From a virus, in the IMG/VR virus record IMGVR_UViG_3300025087_000273, positions 1-26,933 of that record: a DNA stretch of 26,933 nt. One strand, written 5' to 3'. Below, piece after piece: positions 6,171-26,933 of this stretch. Every line of letters starts with the position of its first letter. Position 1 is the stretch's first letter. Both the position numbers and the translations under genes were made by a program. A model generated the notes under the pieces. The model saw only the letters and a list, made by a program, of their open reading frames with translations, had not been told where the DNA came from and made no database searches.

Positions 6171-6197
6171 CCCAAGGATCATTCCTTGGGTTTTTTT
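6171..6197 (+). terminator. Rho-independent terminator
   Basis: A 7-bp stem CCCAAGG/CCTTGGG (6171-6177 and 6184-6190) with a 6-nt loop, extendable by AA/TT, followed by seven T residues (6191-6197). It ends transcripts of the small rightward block. The next gene begins 28 nt downstream. Confidence 0.85.
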
Positions 6198-6225
6198 GTG
6201 TCGAATTTCCAAAACGAGTAGGTTT

Positions 6226-8439
6226 ATGTCAGAAATTGATCATACAAGTCTATCTGACCAAGAATTAAATTCCATAAATGATGCAATAAAAGAATCAGAA
6301 GATTTTGTAAAGAAGGGTGTAGATACAAATATACAAATCCTGTCAGATGAATTTATGTGGGATTTAGCAAAGAAATGTACTCAATATTGTATCTTGCAGA
6401 ATGGAAAAGAGTTTAGAAAATACCAGACTTGGTTTTGTAATAGGATTATCTATTCGCTTCTTATAGAAGATGTAGAGACTATCACTGGACTCTGGGCGAG
6501 GCAGTGTCTTCCTGGAAATACTATTATCTTTGACCGCGATGGCACTGCTTTACAAATTAAAGATCATAAAGATGCTTGGTATACCGGGCATAGAGAAGTG
6601 TTTAAAGTAACTGTTGCAAATGGAATGCTTGTTCGTGCAACCGGAAATCATCCATTTCTTACAAAACGTGGTTGGATTCCAGTACTTGATTTAGTTCCAG
6701 ATGATTATCTTTGTATATTATCTTCTTGGGATCGTCTAAAGAGTAAGTTTGATAAACTAACAAATACTGATAATTGTTACGAAGCAGCGGAAGACGGAAT
6801 TGATGGCGAGAAGAGAGTTTGGGTAAAACTAAAATCAGTAGTTCCAGATGGAACAGAAGATGTTTATGATATTACTTTCCCTGGAAAGGGTTGGTTTGTA
6901 GCGAATGGTTTTTGTGTTCACAACTCAGGGAAGACAGAGGTACTAGCTACAATATGTGCTGGAACTGCTATTATTCTTCCCACGCTATCTAAATACCTAA
7001 GTGATCCTCGTATACAAAAGTATAAAGATGGAATGTGGATGGCTATCTTTGGCCCCACTTATAGTCGCGCTGGTATTATGTATAACCGGGCTAAGCAATT
7101 CCTTTTAAGCAAACATTCACGAGATGTTATTCGTTCTTTAGGAACTGGGATTAACTTAGATAACTTCCGTGGTTCAGTATTAAAACTTCCAAATGGTAGT
7201 TTTATTGATATTCGTACTGCTAGTCCTGGTTCTAAGCTAGAGGGAGATACCTATCACTTTGTTGTAATGGAAGAGGCGCAGGATATTTCTAATACTCTTG
7301 TGCGAAAGTCTATTACACCAATGATTAGTGATACGGCAGGAACCAGGGTAAAGATCGGAACTCCTACTAAAACAAAAAACCACTTTTACGATTCGATTAA
7401 ACGAAACGTGGCAGCAGATGGAATAGCTAAGATTGGGGACTGGGAAGACAAGACTGAGAGTTATAAGAACAAACTACACTTTGAATTTGATTGGAAAACA
7501 GTAGTTAAATACGCTGGGACAAATCGGTATGAAAAAGTTGTCAAAAAAGTAATAGAAGAGTTTGAAAGTATTGGTGGTGAGAATTCAGAAGACTTTAAGA
7601 TGGCATACTGTTGTAAGTGGTCTGATAGTCTAAGTTCTTTCTTATCTAGCGCCGCGTTAAAGAAGTGCTCAGTTATCCATGGAGCATCAGAATTTGTGTA
7701 CGGTGAAAAGGGAGAAGTAATCTCTGAATTTAAGAAGCGGGCTTTAACGGAAAGATCAGAAGGTGATCATCCTGTTATTATAGCGGGTGACTTCGGTAAA
7801 ATGAAATCATCAACTGTACTTACCGCTGGGAAAGTATGGTTAGACAACCCCATTAAGTTTGCTGGAGAGACACGGTATCGAATACACATTTTGGACTGGC
7901 TTGAGATTATTGGCGACGATCATGAATTGCAACATAAACAAATACTAGAATTTGTTTCGCGGTATCCAACTTGCTTTAAGTTCGTTGGCGACGGAACAGG
8001 TAAAGGTGATCCAATTATTTCCCGTCTTCGGGGTGATTTGGAGCCGAACAGAATTGCGGTTGTACCATTTATATTTTCTAAGCAATCAAAACATGAAGGG
8101 TATGGCGTATTAGAGCAAGAGATAAACAGCGGAAGGATAACTTGGCCTTATGGAAAAACAACGAAAACCAAGAGAGTAGACCGCTTCTATCAGCAGTTGG
8201 AAGGTTTGGAAGTTGAATGGGTAGGCAACATCAGGAAGGTTGGTAAACCAGAAGATGAATCTTCGGCGCAAGATGACTACCCTGATAGTTTAATGATGCT
8301 TTGTTGGGGTGCAAATAAAGATAGAAGACATATTTCTACTCAACTTGATTACAATCCACTAATTAAAGTAGATACAAGATATTTTGAGAATTTCCTTTAC
8401 GAAAGACCAGACAACTTCAGTAGGCGCCCTTTTAGATAG
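6226..8439 (+). CDS. terL: Terminase large subunit, intein-containing precursor
   Basis: The precursor is 737 residues; removal of the intein (residues 94-233) leaves about 597, a normal TerL size. The N-terminal ATPase packages DNA through the portal. The spliced P-loop reads WARQ-SGKTE, and Walker B is FVVMEE (345-350). A C-terminal RNase H-like nuclease has candidate metal ligands D522 (IIAGDFGK), D589 (VGDGTGKGD) and D687 (DDYPDS), and would cut concatemeric DNA. I prefer ATG 6226, with a weak GTAGG site, to a TTG ten codons earlier that falls in the terminator's T run. The portal gene starts 8 nt after the stop. No small terminase subunit is recognisable in the window. Confidence 0.93.
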   Translation: MSEIDHTSLSDQELNSINDAIKESEDFVKKGVDTNIQILSDEFMWDLAKKCTQYCILQNGKEFRKYQTWFCNRIIYSLLIEDVETITGLWARQCLPGNTIIFDRDGTALQIKDHKDAWYTGHREVFKVTVANGMLVRATGNHPFLTKRGWIPVLDLVPDDYLCILSSWDRLKSKFDKLTNTDNCYEAAEDGIDGEKRVWVKLKSVVPDGTEDVYDITFPGKGWFVANGFCVHNSGKTEVLATICAGTAIILPTLSKYLSDPRIQKYKDGMWMAIFGPTYSRAGIMYNRAKQFLLSKHSRDVIRSLGTGINLDNFRGSVLKLPNGSFIDIRTASPGSKLEGDTYHFVVMEEAQDISNTLVRKSITPMISDTAGTRVKIGTPTKTKNHFYDSIKRNVAADGIAKIGDWEDKTESYKNKLHFEFDWKTVVKYAGTNRYEKVVKKVIEEFESIGGENSEDFKMAYCCKWSDSLSSFLSSAALKKCSVIHGASEFVYGEKGEVISEFKKRALTERSEGDHPVIIAGDFGKMKSSTVLTAGKVWLDNPIKFAGETRYRIHILDWLEIIGDDHELQHKQILEFVSRYPTCFKFVGDGTGKGDPIISRLRGDLEPNRIAVVPFIFSKQSKHEGYGVLEQEINSGRITWPYGKTTKTKRVDRFYQQLEGLEVEWVGNIRKVGKPEDESSAQDDYPDSLMMLCWGANKDRRHISTQLDYNPLIKVDTRYFENFLYERPDNFSRRPFR
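6505..6924 (+). mobile_element. Mini-intein (140 aa) inserted in the TerL P-loop
   Basis: In frame within terL. Block A starts with C1 (CLPGNTIIF); block B has TGNH (T46, H49); block F is VYDITF with D122; block G ends GFCVHN with H139-N140; the next extein residue is Ser. All catalytic positions for Hint-type splicing are present (Cys1, Thr/His of block B, penultimate His, terminal Asn, +1 Ser). The gap between the N- and C-terminal splicing blocks is only about 40-60 residues, with no LAGLIDADG or HNH homing endonuclease, so this is a mini-intein. The insertion point is between Gln and the SGKT of Walker A, the most conserved point of the ATPase. Confidence 0.93.
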
Positions 8440-10363: not shown

Positions 10364-11104
10364 ATGGCTAGTATGGAAGAAGTGTTAGGCGACATCCAAA
10401 CTGATGAACTTGTGAATGATCTTTCTAAACCAACTGGAGAAGATAATCCTGAAAAGGAAAAGGTCATCACTATTACTAAGAAGGAACTTGAGGACCGGCT
10501 GAATAAAGTTAGGCAGTCTGAAAAGAACCTTCGAGTTAAGCAAGTCGATGCTGCTGTAAAGAAGTTCACCGACGAAGAGCAGCTTCGTAAAGAACTAGAA
10601 AAGAAACTTGCTGAAAAGCAAGAAGCCCCAAAACAAGAAGTTTCGGAAGTATCTAGTCTTCTACAGGAAATTAATAGACACAAAGAAGAACTAGAAGAGA
10701 CTAAGAAAGCTGTTTCACAGATCATTTCTGACCAGGTTACTAAGATTAAACAGGAGCAGGAAGCTGCTTTTGAAAAATATAAGGCGGAAGTTATCAGGGA
10801 ACGGCTCATCAAGGAGAATGGGATTACAGAATCCTTTTCTAAACTTGTTATTGGAAAGACTGTCGGCGAAGTGGAAGCATCTGTACTGGAAATTAAGGTT
10901 ATGCAAGAAAAGGTTTTTGGTGAAGTACAGGAAAAGTTGGCGAAAGAACGAAGCGAATCTGTAGCCAAACCGCTTTCAATGGTTGAGATTAATAAGAACG
11001 TAATGAAGAGTCTCGGGATGGATTCTGATATTCGTGACAAGATAGTTCATGCCAAGGAAGAAGATTTCCAGAAGATGGTGGATGAACTATTACATAAACA
11101 CTAA
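10364..11104 (+). CDS. Capsid assembly scaffold protein
   Basis: A 246-residue, highly charged Glu/Lys-rich protein, almost entirely helical, with strong coiled-coil character (about residues 35-155) and a small C-terminal domain. It sits directly before the major capsid gene, the usual place for scaffolds, and has no enzymatic motif. It would direct procapsid assembly and then leave the shell. CGGAG lies 9 nt before the ATG. A long frame on the opposite strand here arises from the biased Glu/Lys codons and is not coding. Confidence 0.82.
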   Translation: MASMEEVLGDIQTDELVNDLSKPTGEDNPEKEKVITITKKELEDRLNKVRQSEKNLRVKQVDAAVKKFTDEEQLRKELEKKLAEKQEAPKQEVSEVSSLLQEINRHKEELEETKKAVSQIISDQVTKIKQEQEAAFEKYKAEVIRERLIKENGITESFSKLVIGKTVGEVEASVLEIKVMQEKVFGEVQEKLAKERSESVAKPLSMVEINKNVMKSLGMDSDIRDKIVHAKEEDFQKMVDELLHKH

Positions 11105-14805: not shown

Positions 14806-16683
14806 ATGCCTAATTATAATGATTTTCCTCCAGGGTCGTTTGCAAATATTGATACGAGTAGAGTTGTTACTCCTTTTACCGCGATTAATAGTATTACTCC
14901 TTGCTTTTATGTAACTTGTGAATGGGGTCCTACTCTTACTCCGACTCTTGTTACTCCAGACTTCTCTTCGTTTGAGAAGCAGTTCGGTACTTACAAGAGT
15001 GGATTAAATGGTGCTTATCAGGTAAACAACTTCTTTGAAGAAGGCGGACGTGCTTGCTATGTTTACCGATTAGCCCAGATGGATGTGAATCTACAATATG
15101 TAGATGCTACTAAGGCTTCTGTAACTATCCCAGGTCTTGATCTTGATGGTGCTTATGGCTACGGACCACAAGTAGGTTTGGTTGTTTGGGCTAAATATTA
15201 TGGATTGCTTGGTAATGATCTTAAAGTAACTTTTACCAAAAACTCTGAACGACCGAGTTTTGGTACTGGACTAGACCTTGCTGCTAATGCAGTAGCCGGC
15301 AATGCTTACATTGATGTGTTAGGTCTATATGGCTTTAAAGCTGATATGGTGCTTCGTATACACGAAGGAACCAAGGACGAATGGGTTTCAGTACAGGCTG
15401 TAGAAACTATTGTAAGTGGTGGAACCACAACTTATCGGGTGCATCTAAATGATGATTTGATTCAAAGTTTTGCTTTTGCAACAACTACAGTCGAATCCAT
15501 GGAATTTGATGTTCTTGTTTACGTAAAGAACAAGTTGGTTGAATCCTTCTCTAAGTTGTCTGTAAATGCTGACGCTAATAACTACTTCGCCACCGTAATC
15601 GACAATGAATATGAAGGGTCAAATTATATTACTATAGTTCCGGGTTCTGGAGCTACTACATTCTCTGCTATGTTCCCGGATGATATTGTCAAAGCGTTGC
15701 TTGCTGGGGCTACTACAGAATTAAATGCTAATAATTATGTTGCTGATACTGAAGTAATCGGCGTCAAGGGATTCAAAACTGGTTTATATGCAATGGACGA
15801 TTTCCGTTGGCTTATTAGCAAACTTTGTATTCCAGATGGTAACACCAATATCTATCGTAAGGCTCAGGTATATTGTGACAATCGACAAGACATGGGGTTA
15901 TCTTTAGCAGTTCCGAATGCAGATGTGCCGGCAGGATTTACTACAATTGCTGCTTACACCACTGCTGCTAGTTGGCGACAAAAGTTTGGTGCATCTTCGT
16001 TGTTTGTTGACGGCCCATTGTGGGCGGATATTGAAATCTATGATCCAATTGGCAAGGGTAAAAATCCTCGTAAGTGGATCGATCCAACTGGCGCTGTTTT
16101 GGGAATGAACGCTCGTATTGCAACCCTGCCATTTAATATTGACGGTGGTATCCATGCTTGCCCGGCAGGGTTTGACGACAACTTTGGTTATCTCCGTACT
16201 GCTTACGATGTGAAGTACAAGACTTCCCCTGATGAACACACTTACCTTAACAATGCTGGGGTAAATGCAATTATCAAGAGCGGCGCTAAAGTGTATGTCC
16301 GTGGTTGCCGTACTACTTCCGCAGACGAAAGGTTCCGCTTCATTGGTAATACCAACTTGCTGATTAGTATCAAGAATACTTTTGAGCAATCTTCTGAATA
16401 TGCTGTGTTCCGTGGTAATAATAAACGACGTTGGAACGCTCTTGTCAAAGCTGGCGAAGATTATCTTAAGGGACTTTTTGATGATGGCCAACTTGGTGGG
16501 GCTAACTATGACGAAGCTTTCACCATTAAAATGGGAGTAGACCAAAACACTATGACTCTTGCAGATGTTCAGAAGGGGCTAGAACTAGGGCAAGTAGCAG
16601 TACTTCTCCCTGGCGTAGCCGAAAAGATATTCTGGAATATCAACGTAATTGATCCAAACCAGATTGGTTTGTCAATCGTTTAA
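14806..16683 (+). CDS. Contractile tail sheath protein
   Basis: A 625-residue protein. The N-terminus (PPGSF, RVVTPFTAI) is followed by FEKQFGTYKSGLNGAYQVNNFFEEGG, the standard sheath signature in which a virion-specific VTSFAEFExxFG-like motif precedes a helix and a glycine turn with aromatic YR. The C-terminal part (about 480-625) holds the conserved core that attaches to the tube, with INVIDPNQIG as the last strand. A large insertion (about 130-330) forms the outer domains. The next gene is the tail tube, 14 nt downstream. An AGGAG site, with a second AGGG 5 nt before the ATG, supports the start. Confidence 0.93.
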   Translation: MPNYNDFPPGSFANIDTSRVVTPFTAINSITPCFYVTCEWGPTLTPTLVTPDFSSFEKQFGTYKSGLNGAYQVNNFFEEGGRACYVYRLAQMDVNLQYVDATKASVTIPGLDLDGAYGYGPQVGLVVWAKYYGLLGNDLKVTFTKNSERPSFGTGLDLAANAVAGNAYIDVLGLYGFKADMVLRIHEGTKDEWVSVQAVETIVSGGTTTYRVHLNDDLIQSFAFATTTVESMEFDVLVYVKNKLVESFSKLSVNADANNYFATVIDNEYEGSNYITIVPGSGATTFSAMFPDDIVKALLAGATTELNANNYVADTEVIGVKGFKTGLYAMDDFRWLISKLCIPDGNTNIYRKAQVYCDNRQDMGLSLAVPNADVPAGFTTIAAYTTAASWRQKFGASSLFVDGPLWADIEIYDPIGKGKNPRKWIDPTGAVLGMNARIATLPFNIDGGIHACPAGFDDNFGYLRTAYDVKYKTSPDEHTYLNNAGVNAIIKSGAKVYVRGCRTTSADERFRFIGNTNLLISIKNTFEQSSEYAVFRGNNKRRWNALVKAGEDYLKGLFDDGQLGGANYDEAFTIKMGVDQNTMTLADVQKGLELGQVAVLLPGVAEKIFWNINVIDPNQIGLSIV

Positions 16684-22709: not shown

Positions 22710-24154
22710 TGGGATATTATGATCCGGCGGTAAAACTTACAAGCACATGGAGCATCACAATAGATGGTGCTCTATTGCGTGATGATGTAATGCAATACCT
22801 TGAAAGTATATCTATTAATGAAAGTCTGTATAAGGCGGATCAGGCAACAATAACCTTCCTTGATCCAAATTTTAAATTAAGCGACATGCAAGAAAAGGGT
22901 GGGAAGGAGTATTTCTTTAAAAGCGGGCGGAAGATAGAAGTTCGACTTGGGCACAAGGACATGACTTTCTTTTACCAGTTGCGCCTTGACAAGATACGGC
23001 ATAAATTAAATGGTCCAGATGGTGAAGATAGAATGATTCTTCATCTCTTGGATACTTCTATTAATCTGCATCTTTCTCGAAAGAAGCCTTCTTACAGCGG
23101 GTCTTTGCAAGATATAGTACAAGAAATAGCAGATGCTCATGGGCTTACATTATATATGGATAAACAACAAGAAGAAGCTTGGCATACGGTTATTAATGCC
23201 GGGCATAGAACAGATTTACAGGTGCTCCAGTATCTAGCTAGGGAATATGGTTATCGTGTAAAGATGAAAGGGAATGTCCTTATATTCCGGGATAGATATA
23301 GAGAACTACTTGACTTTTCTAGTAATCCGCGTGGAATATTGCATTACAAATCCGAAGATAATACAATTGCACGATGGGATTTGATGGAAAAACAAATATC
23401 AGGAATCGGTAACGCAAATGCTAAAAAGAATATTTGTGGGATTGATAAGAAGAATGATATTGAATATAAAGTAAATGCCTATCATGAAGAAAAGAAGGGA
23501 ACACCATCACAAGTTAAGGCAGCAGGAAAGCCAAAAGAAGAACCTAAAACAGAACAAAGATTTTTCTTAGATGAAAGAGGTGAAGCATACTTAATTACAC
23601 GGGAATTACCAGAAAAGAAAGCCGATGAGAAGCCTGCTGAAACACCATCTAAGATTTCTGCTAAAGACGCTATTGACGCACAATTGAAAGCGGCTGGTTT
23701 GAGTAAGGCAAAGCAACATCAATATGATGCTACTTGTACTTGTTCTTTTGCCGATCCTCTTCTGTTATGCGGATTACGTATAAGTTGCCAAGGATTAGGC
23801 ACTAGGATGAGTGGTCTTTATAAGATTGGTGGACGATCTATTAGCATGAGTCAATCAAAAGCTCCTGAACTAATACTCTATCTTGACAAGGCTTATCTTG
23901 GCGGGAATAAGATTAAGTGTCCTGATGTTGCAAAAACTACTGTTGTTGATGCTGCCGTTAATGGGAAGATAGTAGCGACGGGCATGGAAGACGGTGAATT
24001 GTTGCAGTCAGTCTCATTAGACAAACTCGGAAATACTACATTTAATCTAAAGGCAAGTATACTGGAAAAGGTAGAGGCTGCAAAAGCAGCAATAACAGAA
24101 ATACAGAATCAAAGTGATAAACCTCATCTTGAAGATCAGAGTTATGACGAATGA
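22709..24154 (+). CDS. Baseplate hub protein (gpD/T4 gp27-like)
   Basis: A 481-residue protein. Residues 1-125 form the first tube-like barrel: SWSITIDGALL-type N-terminus, ADQATITFLDPN, and IEVRLGHKD with FYQLRLDKI. Residues 130-200 (GSLQDIVQEIADAHGLTLYM, DLQVLQYLAREYGYRV, GNVLIFRDR) are the standard Phage_GPD late-control D signature. A Lys/Glu/Pro-rich linker (about 265-330) precedes the last barrel, which ends SKAPELILYLDKAY. A charged helical tail follows. It forms a trimer between tube and spike. The start overlaps the previous stop (TAATG). Confidence 0.88.
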   Translation: MGYYDPAVKLTSTWSITIDGALLRDDVMQYLESISINESLYKADQATITFLDPNFKLSDMQEKGGKEYFFKSGRKIEVRLGHKDMTFFYQLRLDKIRHKLNGPDGEDRMILHLLDTSINLHLSRKKPSYSGSLQDIVQEIADAHGLTLYMDKQQEEAWHTVINAGHRTDLQVLQYLAREYGYRVKMKGNVLIFRDRYRELLDFSSNPRGILHYKSEDNTIARWDLMEKQISGIGNANAKKNICGIDKKNDIEYKVNAYHEEKKGTPSQVKAAGKPKEEPKTEQRFFLDERGEAYLITRELPEKKADEKPAETPSKISAKDAIDAQLKAAGLSKAKQHQYDATCTCSFADPLLLCGLRISCQGLGTRMSGLYKIGGRSISMSQSKAPELILYLDKAYLGGNKIKCPDVAKTTVVDAAVNGKIVATGMEDGELLQSVSLDKLGNTTFNLKASILEKVEAAKAAITEIQNQSDKPHLEDQSYDE

Positions 24155-25485
24155 TGTATGATGAACACCTAGAACCGGAATTAAATGAGAAAGTACAACT
24201 TTATCCTGGAATCTATATTGGACGTGTTAAAGAAGTTGATGACCCAGAAGAACTATTCCGGGTAAAAGCAACTTGTCCTTTTATCAATGGCGACCATGAA
24301 ACAGTAACAGATTGGGCGTGGCCTTCTCAATACATAACGAACTTACCCAAACCAGGTGATAAAGTTTGGCTTATGTTTGAGAATGGCGATTTAAGAATGC
24401 CTATTTGGTTTCCCGGACCATATAGCAAAAGAGAAGCGCCAAAGCATTCTCGGGGATTGCCGGGAGATGAGGATTTAGGACAGAAGGGGATTGGATCACT
24501 TCCTAAGTCACAGTTCAAAGGGGAATACGGCGAAGTATATATATGGAAAACTCCGCAAGGGCATGTAATAGAACTTGATGATACCTTAGACAGTCGCAGG
24601 ATTCAAATAAAACATGCTTCTGGGGCTTTTATCGAGATACTAGATGATGGGTCGGTTTTAGAAAGCGCAACTGGTAGTAGGGTAGAACAAAATGTGGGCA
24701 GTAAGACTACTGAGACTTTCGGTAGCGGTGTGGAATATGTTGGAGGGAATAGTAATACTGCTATTGATGGGGATTCTACTACTACAATCAAAGGCGATAC
24801 GAAGGTAGAAATAGGTGGCAGACTTAATCTTAAAATTAGTGGGATTGACTGGTCTACAAATGGGGGATTTTCTATTAATAGCGGCGGTGCTATCTCTACT
24901 ACTTGCCAGGGCAGCAGCAAAGAAACTGTAGGCGGGAGTCGATCTGTCAAGGTAACTGATTCTGAAACAAAGACTGTATTAGAAGCTTGTAAACTTCTAG
25001 TTGCTAATGCGACGGGTAAACCAACAGACGATGCGCTTTATGAACAAGTATTAAATGGTAAGTTGACTATATTAGAAGCTGATCCTTCTGGCAAAGCAAT
25101 GGGAAATACAATCCAATTATCCTGTGCGCCTACTCCAACACTCAAGTTATATTCAGGTCCAACCCCTAACCCAGAACAACAACAGGGTTGGCCTAATGAA
25201 CCTAAAATTGGTTCTGGATTGATACTAGATGGGAAGGGTACTAGTACTACATTACATTCTATGGCTAAATTAATCCTTAAAGCTGCTGTAAATATACTTA
25301 TAGATGCTGCTACGATTCAACTAGAAGGTGGTCTTATACAGTTAGGAAGGGGCGCTACGGAACCAGTAATTAAAGGACTTCAATTTTATGCATTATATAA
25401 TGCGCATACCCATGCTGCGCCGGGATCGCCTCCAGTAGTATTAATGTCACCAACTGTATTATCAACCACGGCTTTTGTAGCATGA
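24151..25485 (+). CDS. Baseplate spike protein (gp5/gpV-like, OB-fold plus beta-helix)
   Basis: A 444-residue protein. The N-terminal OB-fold (about 18-90) has GIYIGRVKEVDDPEELFRVKA, DWAWPSQYI, LPKPGDKVWLMFENGD and PIWFPG. A stretch with ELDDTLDSRRIQIKHASGAFIEI (about 140-165) precedes a repetitive Gly/Thr/Ser beta-helix region (about 165-270). After further repeats it ends in a segment with H419-T-H421, resembling the HxH iron site at spike tips. No lysozyme domain is present. The gene follows the hub with an ATGA overlap and would form the trimeric membrane-piercing needle. Confidence 0.88.
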   Translation: MMYDEHLEPELNEKVQLYPGIYIGRVKEVDDPEELFRVKATCPFINGDHETVTDWAWPSQYITNLPKPGDKVWLMFENGDLRMPIWFPGPYSKREAPKHSRGLPGDEDLGQKGIGSLPKSQFKGEYGEVYIWKTPQGHVIELDDTLDSRRIQIKHASGAFIEILDDGSVLESATGSRVEQNVGSKTTETFGSGVEYVGGNSNTAIDGDSTTTIKGDTKVEIGGRLNLKISGIDWSTNGGFSINSGGAISTTCQGSSKETVGGSRSVKVTDSETKTVLEACKLLVANATGKPTDDALYEQVLNGKLTILEADPSGKAMGNTIQLSCAPTPTLKLYSGPTPNPEQQQGWPNEPKIGSGLILDGKGTSTTLHSMAKLILKAAVNILIDAATIQLEGGLIQLGRGATEPVIKGLQFYALYNAHTHAAPGSPPVVLMSPTVLSTTAFVA

Positions 25486-26153
25486 TTATAGACGAAATAA
25501 AACAAATATCAATATTTGTTCCCCCGGAAGTTGAGGAACAGGGGATAAATGTATTTACAAATCAAATAGTAAAAGTAGAAAACATAAGAGCATTTCAATA
25601 TTTGTCTATTCTTGGTAAAGCAATAAGTTGCCTTTATGAAGATGTTGATAAGAAGATGGATGCTAAGGGTGTTGCTGTTATTGCAACTCAAGCAGCTTTA
25701 ATGAATAGGCAATCTCAAATAGAAGAGGTGAATGATGGCAGCTTGGATTCCTTTTACCCCGGGCAATCTTATACCAGCCGGGACGGAGCAGATAGCATCG
25801 CAGATTCTTACCGTAGTGAGCTTGATAAGCTCTGTACTAGATACGCTATCGAACATCCTGGACATTATAGGGAACTTATTAGTCGGATTAACGAACGTCT
25901 TAGCAACAGCATTGAAAACACTGATAGACTCGATAAAGAATCTGCTACTGGATTTGGCCTCGACAGGATTCTATTTTCTTTATCACATTCCGCAATTGGA
26001 AGCCAAGCAAAGGACATTCGATCAGTGGGTTCAGGATGTAGCAGGATCAATCCCGAACTACAAGGAGATGCAGAAAGCAATAAAGATTGCGAAGAAGGAC
26101 CCGACAAACCCAGTAGCACAGGATTGGTTACAACGTCCGGCGTTCTCGAATGA
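25482..26153 (+). CDS. Hypothetical baseplate-region protein, 223 aa (C-terminal two thirds overlap the next gene)
   Basis: Not recognised. It starts with an ATGA overlap after the spike. Residues 1-84 look like a normal small protein (MIIDEIKQISIFVPPEVEEQ, then a helix with AFQYLSILGKAISCLYEDVDKKM). From residue 85 it runs in a different phase across the beginning of the next gene for about 420 nt. There the sequence becomes Ser-rich and less protein-like at the end, though the segment ELDKLCTRYAIEH to ENTDRL is still plausible. Either this is a true overlapping gene, or the C-terminal part is a reading-frame extension after loss of a nearby stop or a sequence error. Confidence 0.55.
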   Translation: MIIDEIKQISIFVPPEVEEQGINVFTNQIVKVENIRAFQYLSILGKAISCLYEDVDKKMDAKGVAVIATQAALMNRQSQIEEVNDGSLDSFYPGQSYTSRDGADSIADSYRSELDKLCTRYAIEHPGHYRELISRINERLSNSIENTDRLDKESATGFGLDRILFSLSHSAIGSQAKDIRSVGSGCSRINPELQGDAESNKDCEEGPDKPSSTGLVTTSGVLE

Positions 26154-26933
26154 TGCTTATGTCGGAGCAATAGCAATTGTCCTAGCTTATCCTTCTTTTC
26201 AAGAATTTATGGATTGGTGGGATTCAGTAAAGAAACTATTTGACTTTAATGCATACCGCGACCCTATACCTATTAGAAAATCAGAAGAGAATCTAGCGCT
26301 ATCTAAGTTTGGAACTCCCAGGTGGTATTCAAGTTCATTCAAACAATGGGGACCATTCCGAGATTTCATCAATATCATGCTGGAATTTATAGATTCGCTA
26401 GATGTCTTTGATACCGCTGAAAATGCGATCAAGGAATTCGCCAGGTTTTTACAAGAGAAAGCAGATAGATTACGTACAGTTACTAAAGCAATTGCTGATA
26501 TTATAGAACGGCTAGTCAAGGCGATTAACCAAACCGGGTTGTGGGCGTTACCGATTTATGGCCAAGGTGGTAACGAATTAGTCCGGAATGCATTGCTTTC
26601 AACATCCGGTGAAAGTGCTGATATACAAACCAGCGCCGAGAAGGGCGCGGCTAAAGCTATTTCCCAATTAACTGAATTATCAAGCCAGTTAGAAACAGAA
26701 CAAAATGATGGCTTTATCGCCCCGCCAAATCGTGACTCTCAGACGTTTACTAAGGGGGCAGACCAACAAGCAGATCAAAGCCTAGAATATCTTGAGAAGA
26801 TTCTTAAAAAGAATAATACAACGTTTGCACATACAGATGGGTTAGGTGTAGCAAAAGCAATTGGCGTAGCCAATACAAAACCAATGCATGTAGCTTATGA
26901 ACGTAGATCGGGAGATGCACTTTCCGGATGGTG
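25735..26933 (+). CDS. Unknown baseplate/tail protein with long amphipathic helix, partial (3' end beyond right edge)
   Basis: An open frame of 399 complete codons runs to the right edge without a stop. Two ATGs (25732, 25735) follow AGAGG; the second has better spacing (6 nt). After a short start (AAWIPFTPGN), residues ~18-70 form a hydrophobic amphipathic helix with regular Leu/Ile spacing (VVSLISSVLDTLSNILDIIG and on). A mixed domain with FDQWVQDV, FMDWWDSVKKLF and FGTPRWYSSSFKQWGPF follows, then charged helices and a segment SLEYLEKILKK. The family is not recognised. Position after the spike points to a baseplate or tail-tip component. The amphipathic helix could interact with a membrane or trimerise. 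Confidence 0.75.
   Translation, partial: MAAWIPFTPGNLIPAGTEQIASQILTVVSLISSVLDTLSNILDIIGNLLVGLTNVLATALKTLIDSIKNLLLDLASTGFYFLYHIPQLEAKQRTFDQWVQDVAGSIPNYKEMQKAIKIAKKDPTNPVAQDWLQRPAFSNDAYVGAIAIVLAYPSFQEFMDWWDSVKKLFDFNAYRDPIPIRKSEENLALSKFGTPRWYSSSFKQWGPFRDFINIMLEFIDSLDVFDTAENAIKEFARFLQEKADRLRTVTKAIADIIERLVKAINQTGLWALPIYGQGGNELVRNALLSTSGESADIQTSAEKGAAKAISQLTELSSQLETEQNDGFIAPPNRDSQTFTKGADQQADQSLEYLEKILKKNNTTFAHTDGLGVAKAIGVANTKPMHVAYERRSGDALSGW

Follow-up and report, generated by a model that had tools for sequence, protein, structure and literature searches.

A 419-nt stretch behind the spike gene of a contractile-tail phage appears to code for two proteins in two reading frames

Two overlapping frames behind the spike gene

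The 26.9-kb window, i.e., the whole stretch of DNA analysed here, comes from an uncultured phage and shows a contractile-tail gene order, with genes for terminase, portal, capsid, sheath, tube, tape measure, a CIS_tube-like protein, hub and a gp5/gpV-like spike. The last of these genes (24151..25485, plus strand) was identified by a domain search as coding for a baseplate spike with a Phage_base_V OB domain, and two further plus-strand frames, referred to as f1 and f2, lie directly 3' of it. Streptomyces phage GiJojo and Leptospira phage LE4 largely share this tail gene order, and neither contained a match to f1 or f2; the spike gene is followed by a gp25-like gene in GiJojo and by unrelated small genes in LE4. 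The terminase large subunit (window positions 6196-8439) contains an intein (Pfam Intein_splicing, E = 2.9e-14), which is compact at about 135 residues and leaves scant space for a homing endonuclease. Contigs from three IMG/VR sample sets (L004, L005 and L008-L010) showed 99.6–100% protein identity to the phage and, by this measure, the same phage population recurs across several assemblies. None of these contigs covers the overlap of f1 and f2, and searches using the spike, sheath and TerL as bait matched only contigs of the same population, none of which was recorded as reaching position 25482.

Frame f1 (25482..26153, plus strand, 223 codons) starts with an ATG overlapping the TGA of the spike gene in an ATGA junction and ends with a TGA codon at 26151..26153. 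Its residues 1-84 are single-coding and show a normal coding composition; a coupled start and a sensible N-terminal part had been claimed in the initial annotation. The last ~139 codons overlap with f2 (25735..26931, plus strand), which comprises at least 399 codons, is shifted by +1 relative to f1 and runs off the right contig edge. The two frames, correctly described before as lying out of phase, share 419 nt (25735..26153), whereas neighbouring tail genes overlap by only 1 or 4 nt, which also agrees with the earlier description of the region. A Shine-Dalgarno-like site, AGAGGTGA (25724..25731, plus strand), is present within the codons of f1, in line with the ribosome site noted before for f2, and is followed by two consecutive ATG codons of f2. 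Because the ATG at 25735 is spaced by 6 nt from the AGG of this site and that at 25732 by only 3 nt, we consider 25735 the better start. A single-sequence AlphaFold model of f1 was uninformative (pLDDT 35), and that of f2 predicted a mostly helical protein at low confidence; the quality of both models was insufficient for a fold search. Judging by the position of the genes, the products of f1 and f2 probably have roles in tail or baseplate assembly.

Openness and codon composition of the overlap

The openness of f1 was evaluated by keeping the f2 protein fixed, drawing its codons by phage usage and counting the resulting f1 stops. The mean expectation was 10 stops, and none of 200,000 simulations yielded a frame without any. 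Dynamic programming resulted in a probability of 4.6e-7 for the span including f1's own stop and of 3e-6 for the open part only, and the probability of f2 being open given the f1 protein was 1.5e-4. There are 22 codon boundaries of f2 at which an f1 stop would arise from a T; T was absent from all of them, compared to 9.6 expected. When 17 plus-strand genes were scanned, each in five alternative frames, the f1 stretch ranked first, followed by values of 5e-5 and 1.4e-4 as the next ones outside the locus. Under phage codon usage, these values belong to an open 89-codon alternative-frame stretch at 10695-10961 in the probable scaffold gene (10364-11104), which carries no third-position shift comparable to that of f2, and to a 224-codon antisense frame open at 15907-16578 in the sheath gene, respectively. 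Because such values occur elsewhere in the gene scan, the P values for f1 and f2 somewhat overstate their significance. The probability of f1 being open was 0.0024 under local codon usage and 0.0055 after shuffling f2's own synonymous codons, and its rise to as much as 0.001–0.006 once local third-base composition is allowed for is the weakest point of the case for dual coding. A shuffle of the codon order of f1 at fixed codon counts, in which f1's own stop codon was counted, was weakly suggestive (P = 0.07). Taken together, the overlap is not an ordinary chance read-through, a conclusion that is weaker under local codon usage.

The initial annotation had described AT-rich third positions in f1 and G/C-rich ones in f2 over the overlap, and the numbers bear this out. 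The GC3 value of f1 is 0.36, and that of f2 is 0.51 inside and 0.32 past the overlap. Because the third positions of f1 are the second positions of f2 and are set by its hydrophobic protein, the AT-richness of the former is no sign of a greater age of f1. The informative signal is in the third positions of f2, which are the first positions of f1. Over the overlap, their base frequencies of T.18, C.18, A.31 and G.33 match those at codon position one in the remaining genes of the phage (T.19, C.16, A.31, G.34). After correction for the encoded amino acids, f2 third positions in the overlap deviated with z = +5.5 for G and z = −5.7 for T, while past the overlap G was normal (z = −0.3) and T mildly low (z = −2.3); no window in 16 other genes tested went beyond a z of 2.5 for G or −2.6 for T. 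The maximum-likelihood change point along f2 was located at 26149 (permutation P = 0.006), two bases 5' of the f1 stop codon, where the third-position composition of f2 becomes normal again, and the twelve best change points all fell within 26104-26155. The third-position shift of f2 is confined to the stretch in which f1 is open. The openness of each frame exceeds chance, and the synonymous positions of f2 track the first-position composition of f1 up to the f1 stop.

Synonymous codon usage over the overlap resulted in z values of −3.5 for f1 and −6.0 for f2, compared to a mean of −0.1 (sd 1.3, minimum −3.7) for 125 windows of real genes. Coding by f2 alone is rejected, its value being lower than those of all 125 real windows, and coding by f1 alone is rejected with 0.8% of the real windows. 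The synonymous usage of f1 was no better than that of a typical shadow frame, and coding-versus-shadow scores of −0.079 for f1 and −0.041 for f2 are intermediate between those of most real genes and those of most shadow frames, with f2 scoring like a shadow frame over 25782-25916. Neither single-frame account fits the overlap. In a likelihood model of the synonymous choices in f2, f1 codon preference and stop avoidance produced a gain of 2dLL = 40.4; the largest gain in 63 background windows was 13.6, and the best 6 of these 63 all showed a negative f1 preference. When local third-base composition was fitted first, stop avoidance was still significant (likelihood-ratio P = 0.0012) and f1 codon preference added nothing further (lambda about 0); the third-position shift of f2 exceeds the prediction from f1 codon preference alone. 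By these statistics, the 419 nt appear to code for two proteins in two frames, and several tests, in part independent of one another and all using one sequence of the overlap, lend good support to the possible dual coding proposed at the outset.

Some of these features would also be obtained if f2 alone coded in the overlap and a local third-base shift of other origin, e.g., a GC-richer phage segment, opened f1 by chance, with f1 being a short gene minus its stop. The probabilities of 0.0024–0.0055 calculated from local composition alone are in favour of this explanation, as are the good unaided fit of the third-base tilt and the high GC content (GC3 of 0.65) of the phage containing the f2 homologue described below. 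We still regard it as unlikely, since the shift favours G over C and A over T instead of representing a plain GC increase and equals the first-position composition of the phage, f2 shows no increase in GC1 or GC2, the shift ends at most one codon from the f1 stop, and stop avoidance persists after the tilt is accounted for. A true stop of f1 may alternatively have been removed by an assembly or sequencing indel 5' of 25735, the real end of the gene then being a TGA such as that at 25733-25735, in an ATGA overlap with the ATG at 25732. Another frame does contain this TGA, and genes of the cluster are as a rule joined by ATGA, but the first 84 codons of f1 are normal in coding composition with no internal frame change seen. 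An indel would also explain neither the missing stops nor the shifted composition of the 139 codons that follow, and we consider such an error very improbable. Finally, the synonymous constraint on f2 may come from an RNA element or from a 103-codon antisense ORF (25865-26176) instead of f1; given phage codon usage, the openness of this antisense frame is likewise unusual (P = 1e-5). However, the shift is already present before this ORF (25735-25866: G3.32, T3.25) and is lacking where the antisense frame passes the f1 stop (26155-26205: G3 0, T3.47), and the folding of the overlap is not unusual (z = +0.8), with Rfam giving no match. Both causes were therefore rejected and carry almost no probability.

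Relatives of f2 and relative age of the frames

A relative of f2 was detected by tblastn in the uncultured phage LR745208.1 (485 kb), which codes for an 867-aa protein at L002:7941-10541. Its N-terminus matched residues 19-81 (~19-83) of f2 with 38% over 63 residues, with E = 7e-3 for the full phage set. Against a local set with filtering switched off, the E value was 4e-6 and the alignment reached both N-termini (f2 residues 3-83), and a comparison of the f2 N-terminus with that of the same protein (P0003) scored z = 8 over hydropathy-preserving shuffles. The similarity thus occurs at the same, N-terminal position, as expected for members of one family, and the rest of f2, which is cut at the contig edge, showed weak matches in helical regions. 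The 867-aa gene of LR745208.1 is preceded by a 72-aa gene that ends just before its start codon in the f1-equivalent frame, and this frame hits a stop 63 codons further on. The N-terminus of f1 showed no similarity to the small genes that precede the 867-aa gene of LR745208.1, including the 72-aa gene. Searches of phages, viral contigs and genome contigs by tblastn revealed no relatives of f1 and none of f2 beyond the protein of LR745208.1 and contigs identical to it, and Pfam, PHROGs and PDB sequence searches with both frames returned nothing significant.

The initial annotation had further suggested that f2 was written over an older f1. Of this claim, the two coding layers stood, but their direction is doubtful and was not established, with codon usage speaking for it and homology against it. 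Because distant homology sits in f2 within the overlap and f1 is without a detectable homologue, f2 is favoured as the older frame. Because the upstream gene of LR745208.1 stops before the start of its neighbour and f1 has no relative, an older f2 combined with an f1 tail gained as a stop-loss extension is favoured. The criterion of Pavesi et al. (PMC3744397), by which the frame with less atypical synonymous usage is the older one, here f1, points the other way. We gave more weight to homology than to codon usage for the order of ages; it seems more likely that f2 is older and the 138-residue tail of f1 newer. If both frames code and the long f1 is instead ancestral, the start of f2 would have shifted upstream into f1. 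In addition to the less atypical codon usage of f1 (z = −3.5 vs. −6.0), the shadow-frame-like stretch of f2 at 25782-25916 would be consistent with this order of events. We consider it rather unlikely because the matched region of f2, which shares homology with the N-terminus of a tail-region protein from a distant phage, falls inside the overlap, implying that this part of f2 predates the split; moreover, f1 had no relative in the searches, and 3' elongation of the upstream gene was the commoner route to overlap in the simulation of Fonseca et al. (PMC3887535).

Proposed account and known overlapping genes

In the account we prefer, translation of f1 would be coupled to that of the spike gene via the ATGA junction, yielding a putative 223-residue protein, and f2 would be translated from an internal start behind AGAGGTGA inside f1, yielding a putative long helical tail or baseplate protein. 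The N-terminal domain of f2 would represent the older layer. The ancestral f1 may have been short (about 84 codons), ending beside the f2 start, until loss of its stop let reading continue into f2; its last ~138 residues, once read, would then have been kept by selection, and the overlap may tie translation of both neighbouring tail genes together. We assign a probability of about two in three to this account as a whole, i.e., coding by both frames, coupling of f1, the internal start of f2, the greater age of its N-terminal domain and the origin of the f1 tail by stop loss. That a segment of about 138 residues was born de novo by upstream stop loss over a conserved tail-protein N-terminal domain and is now functional in a structural or assembly protein is put forward more tentatively, at somewhat less than even odds. 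If real, the overlap would mean that a new protein segment has arisen inside a conserved tail gene. Gene-calling programs normally remove such overlapping pairs, and a single metagenomic sequence can hold testable evidence of dual coding in the third positions of one frame.

Overprinted gene pairs on the same strand are known from viruses, such as the nested genes of phiX174 and Rz/Rz1 of lambda, which resemble f1 and f2 in encoding two proteins by one DNA stretch in two frames of one strand. Unlike these, f1 and f2 form a terminal overlap of 419 nt in the tail cluster of a tailed dsDNA phage, and the evidence is statistical only. Tailed phages are usually not short of space for separate genes, and because their overlaps mostly consist of a few bases, a two-frame overlap of 419 nt is unusual. 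Overlapping genes as such are already known, and f1/f2 is an unusually long example, of a length rarely seen in tailed phages. In a survey of 12,609 virus genomes, +1 overlaps had a median length of 14 nt (IQR 8–26), and longer virus genomes had shorter overlaps (PMC8903798). The 867-aa protein of LR745208.1 shares the homologous N-terminus with f2, located at the protein start, but is more than twice as long as the visible part of f2, and its upstream 72-aa gene is unlike f1 and stops just before it, with the f1-equivalent frame closed. Overlapping frames in the tail module are also found in the lambda G/GT frameshift pair (cited in PMC8008677), whereas f2 has its own start and a frameshift product is not needed; a slippery site was not evident at the f1 end (CTC GAA TGA TGC), as inspected by eye. 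A parallel in the proposed mode of origin is provided by long phase-1 unidirectional overlaps of prokaryotes arising by stop loss (PMC3887535), in which the upstream gene is likewise extended 3' into the next one; compared to these, f1/f2 is far longer than typical, and the statistics indicate that its extension is kept open more than chance would allow.
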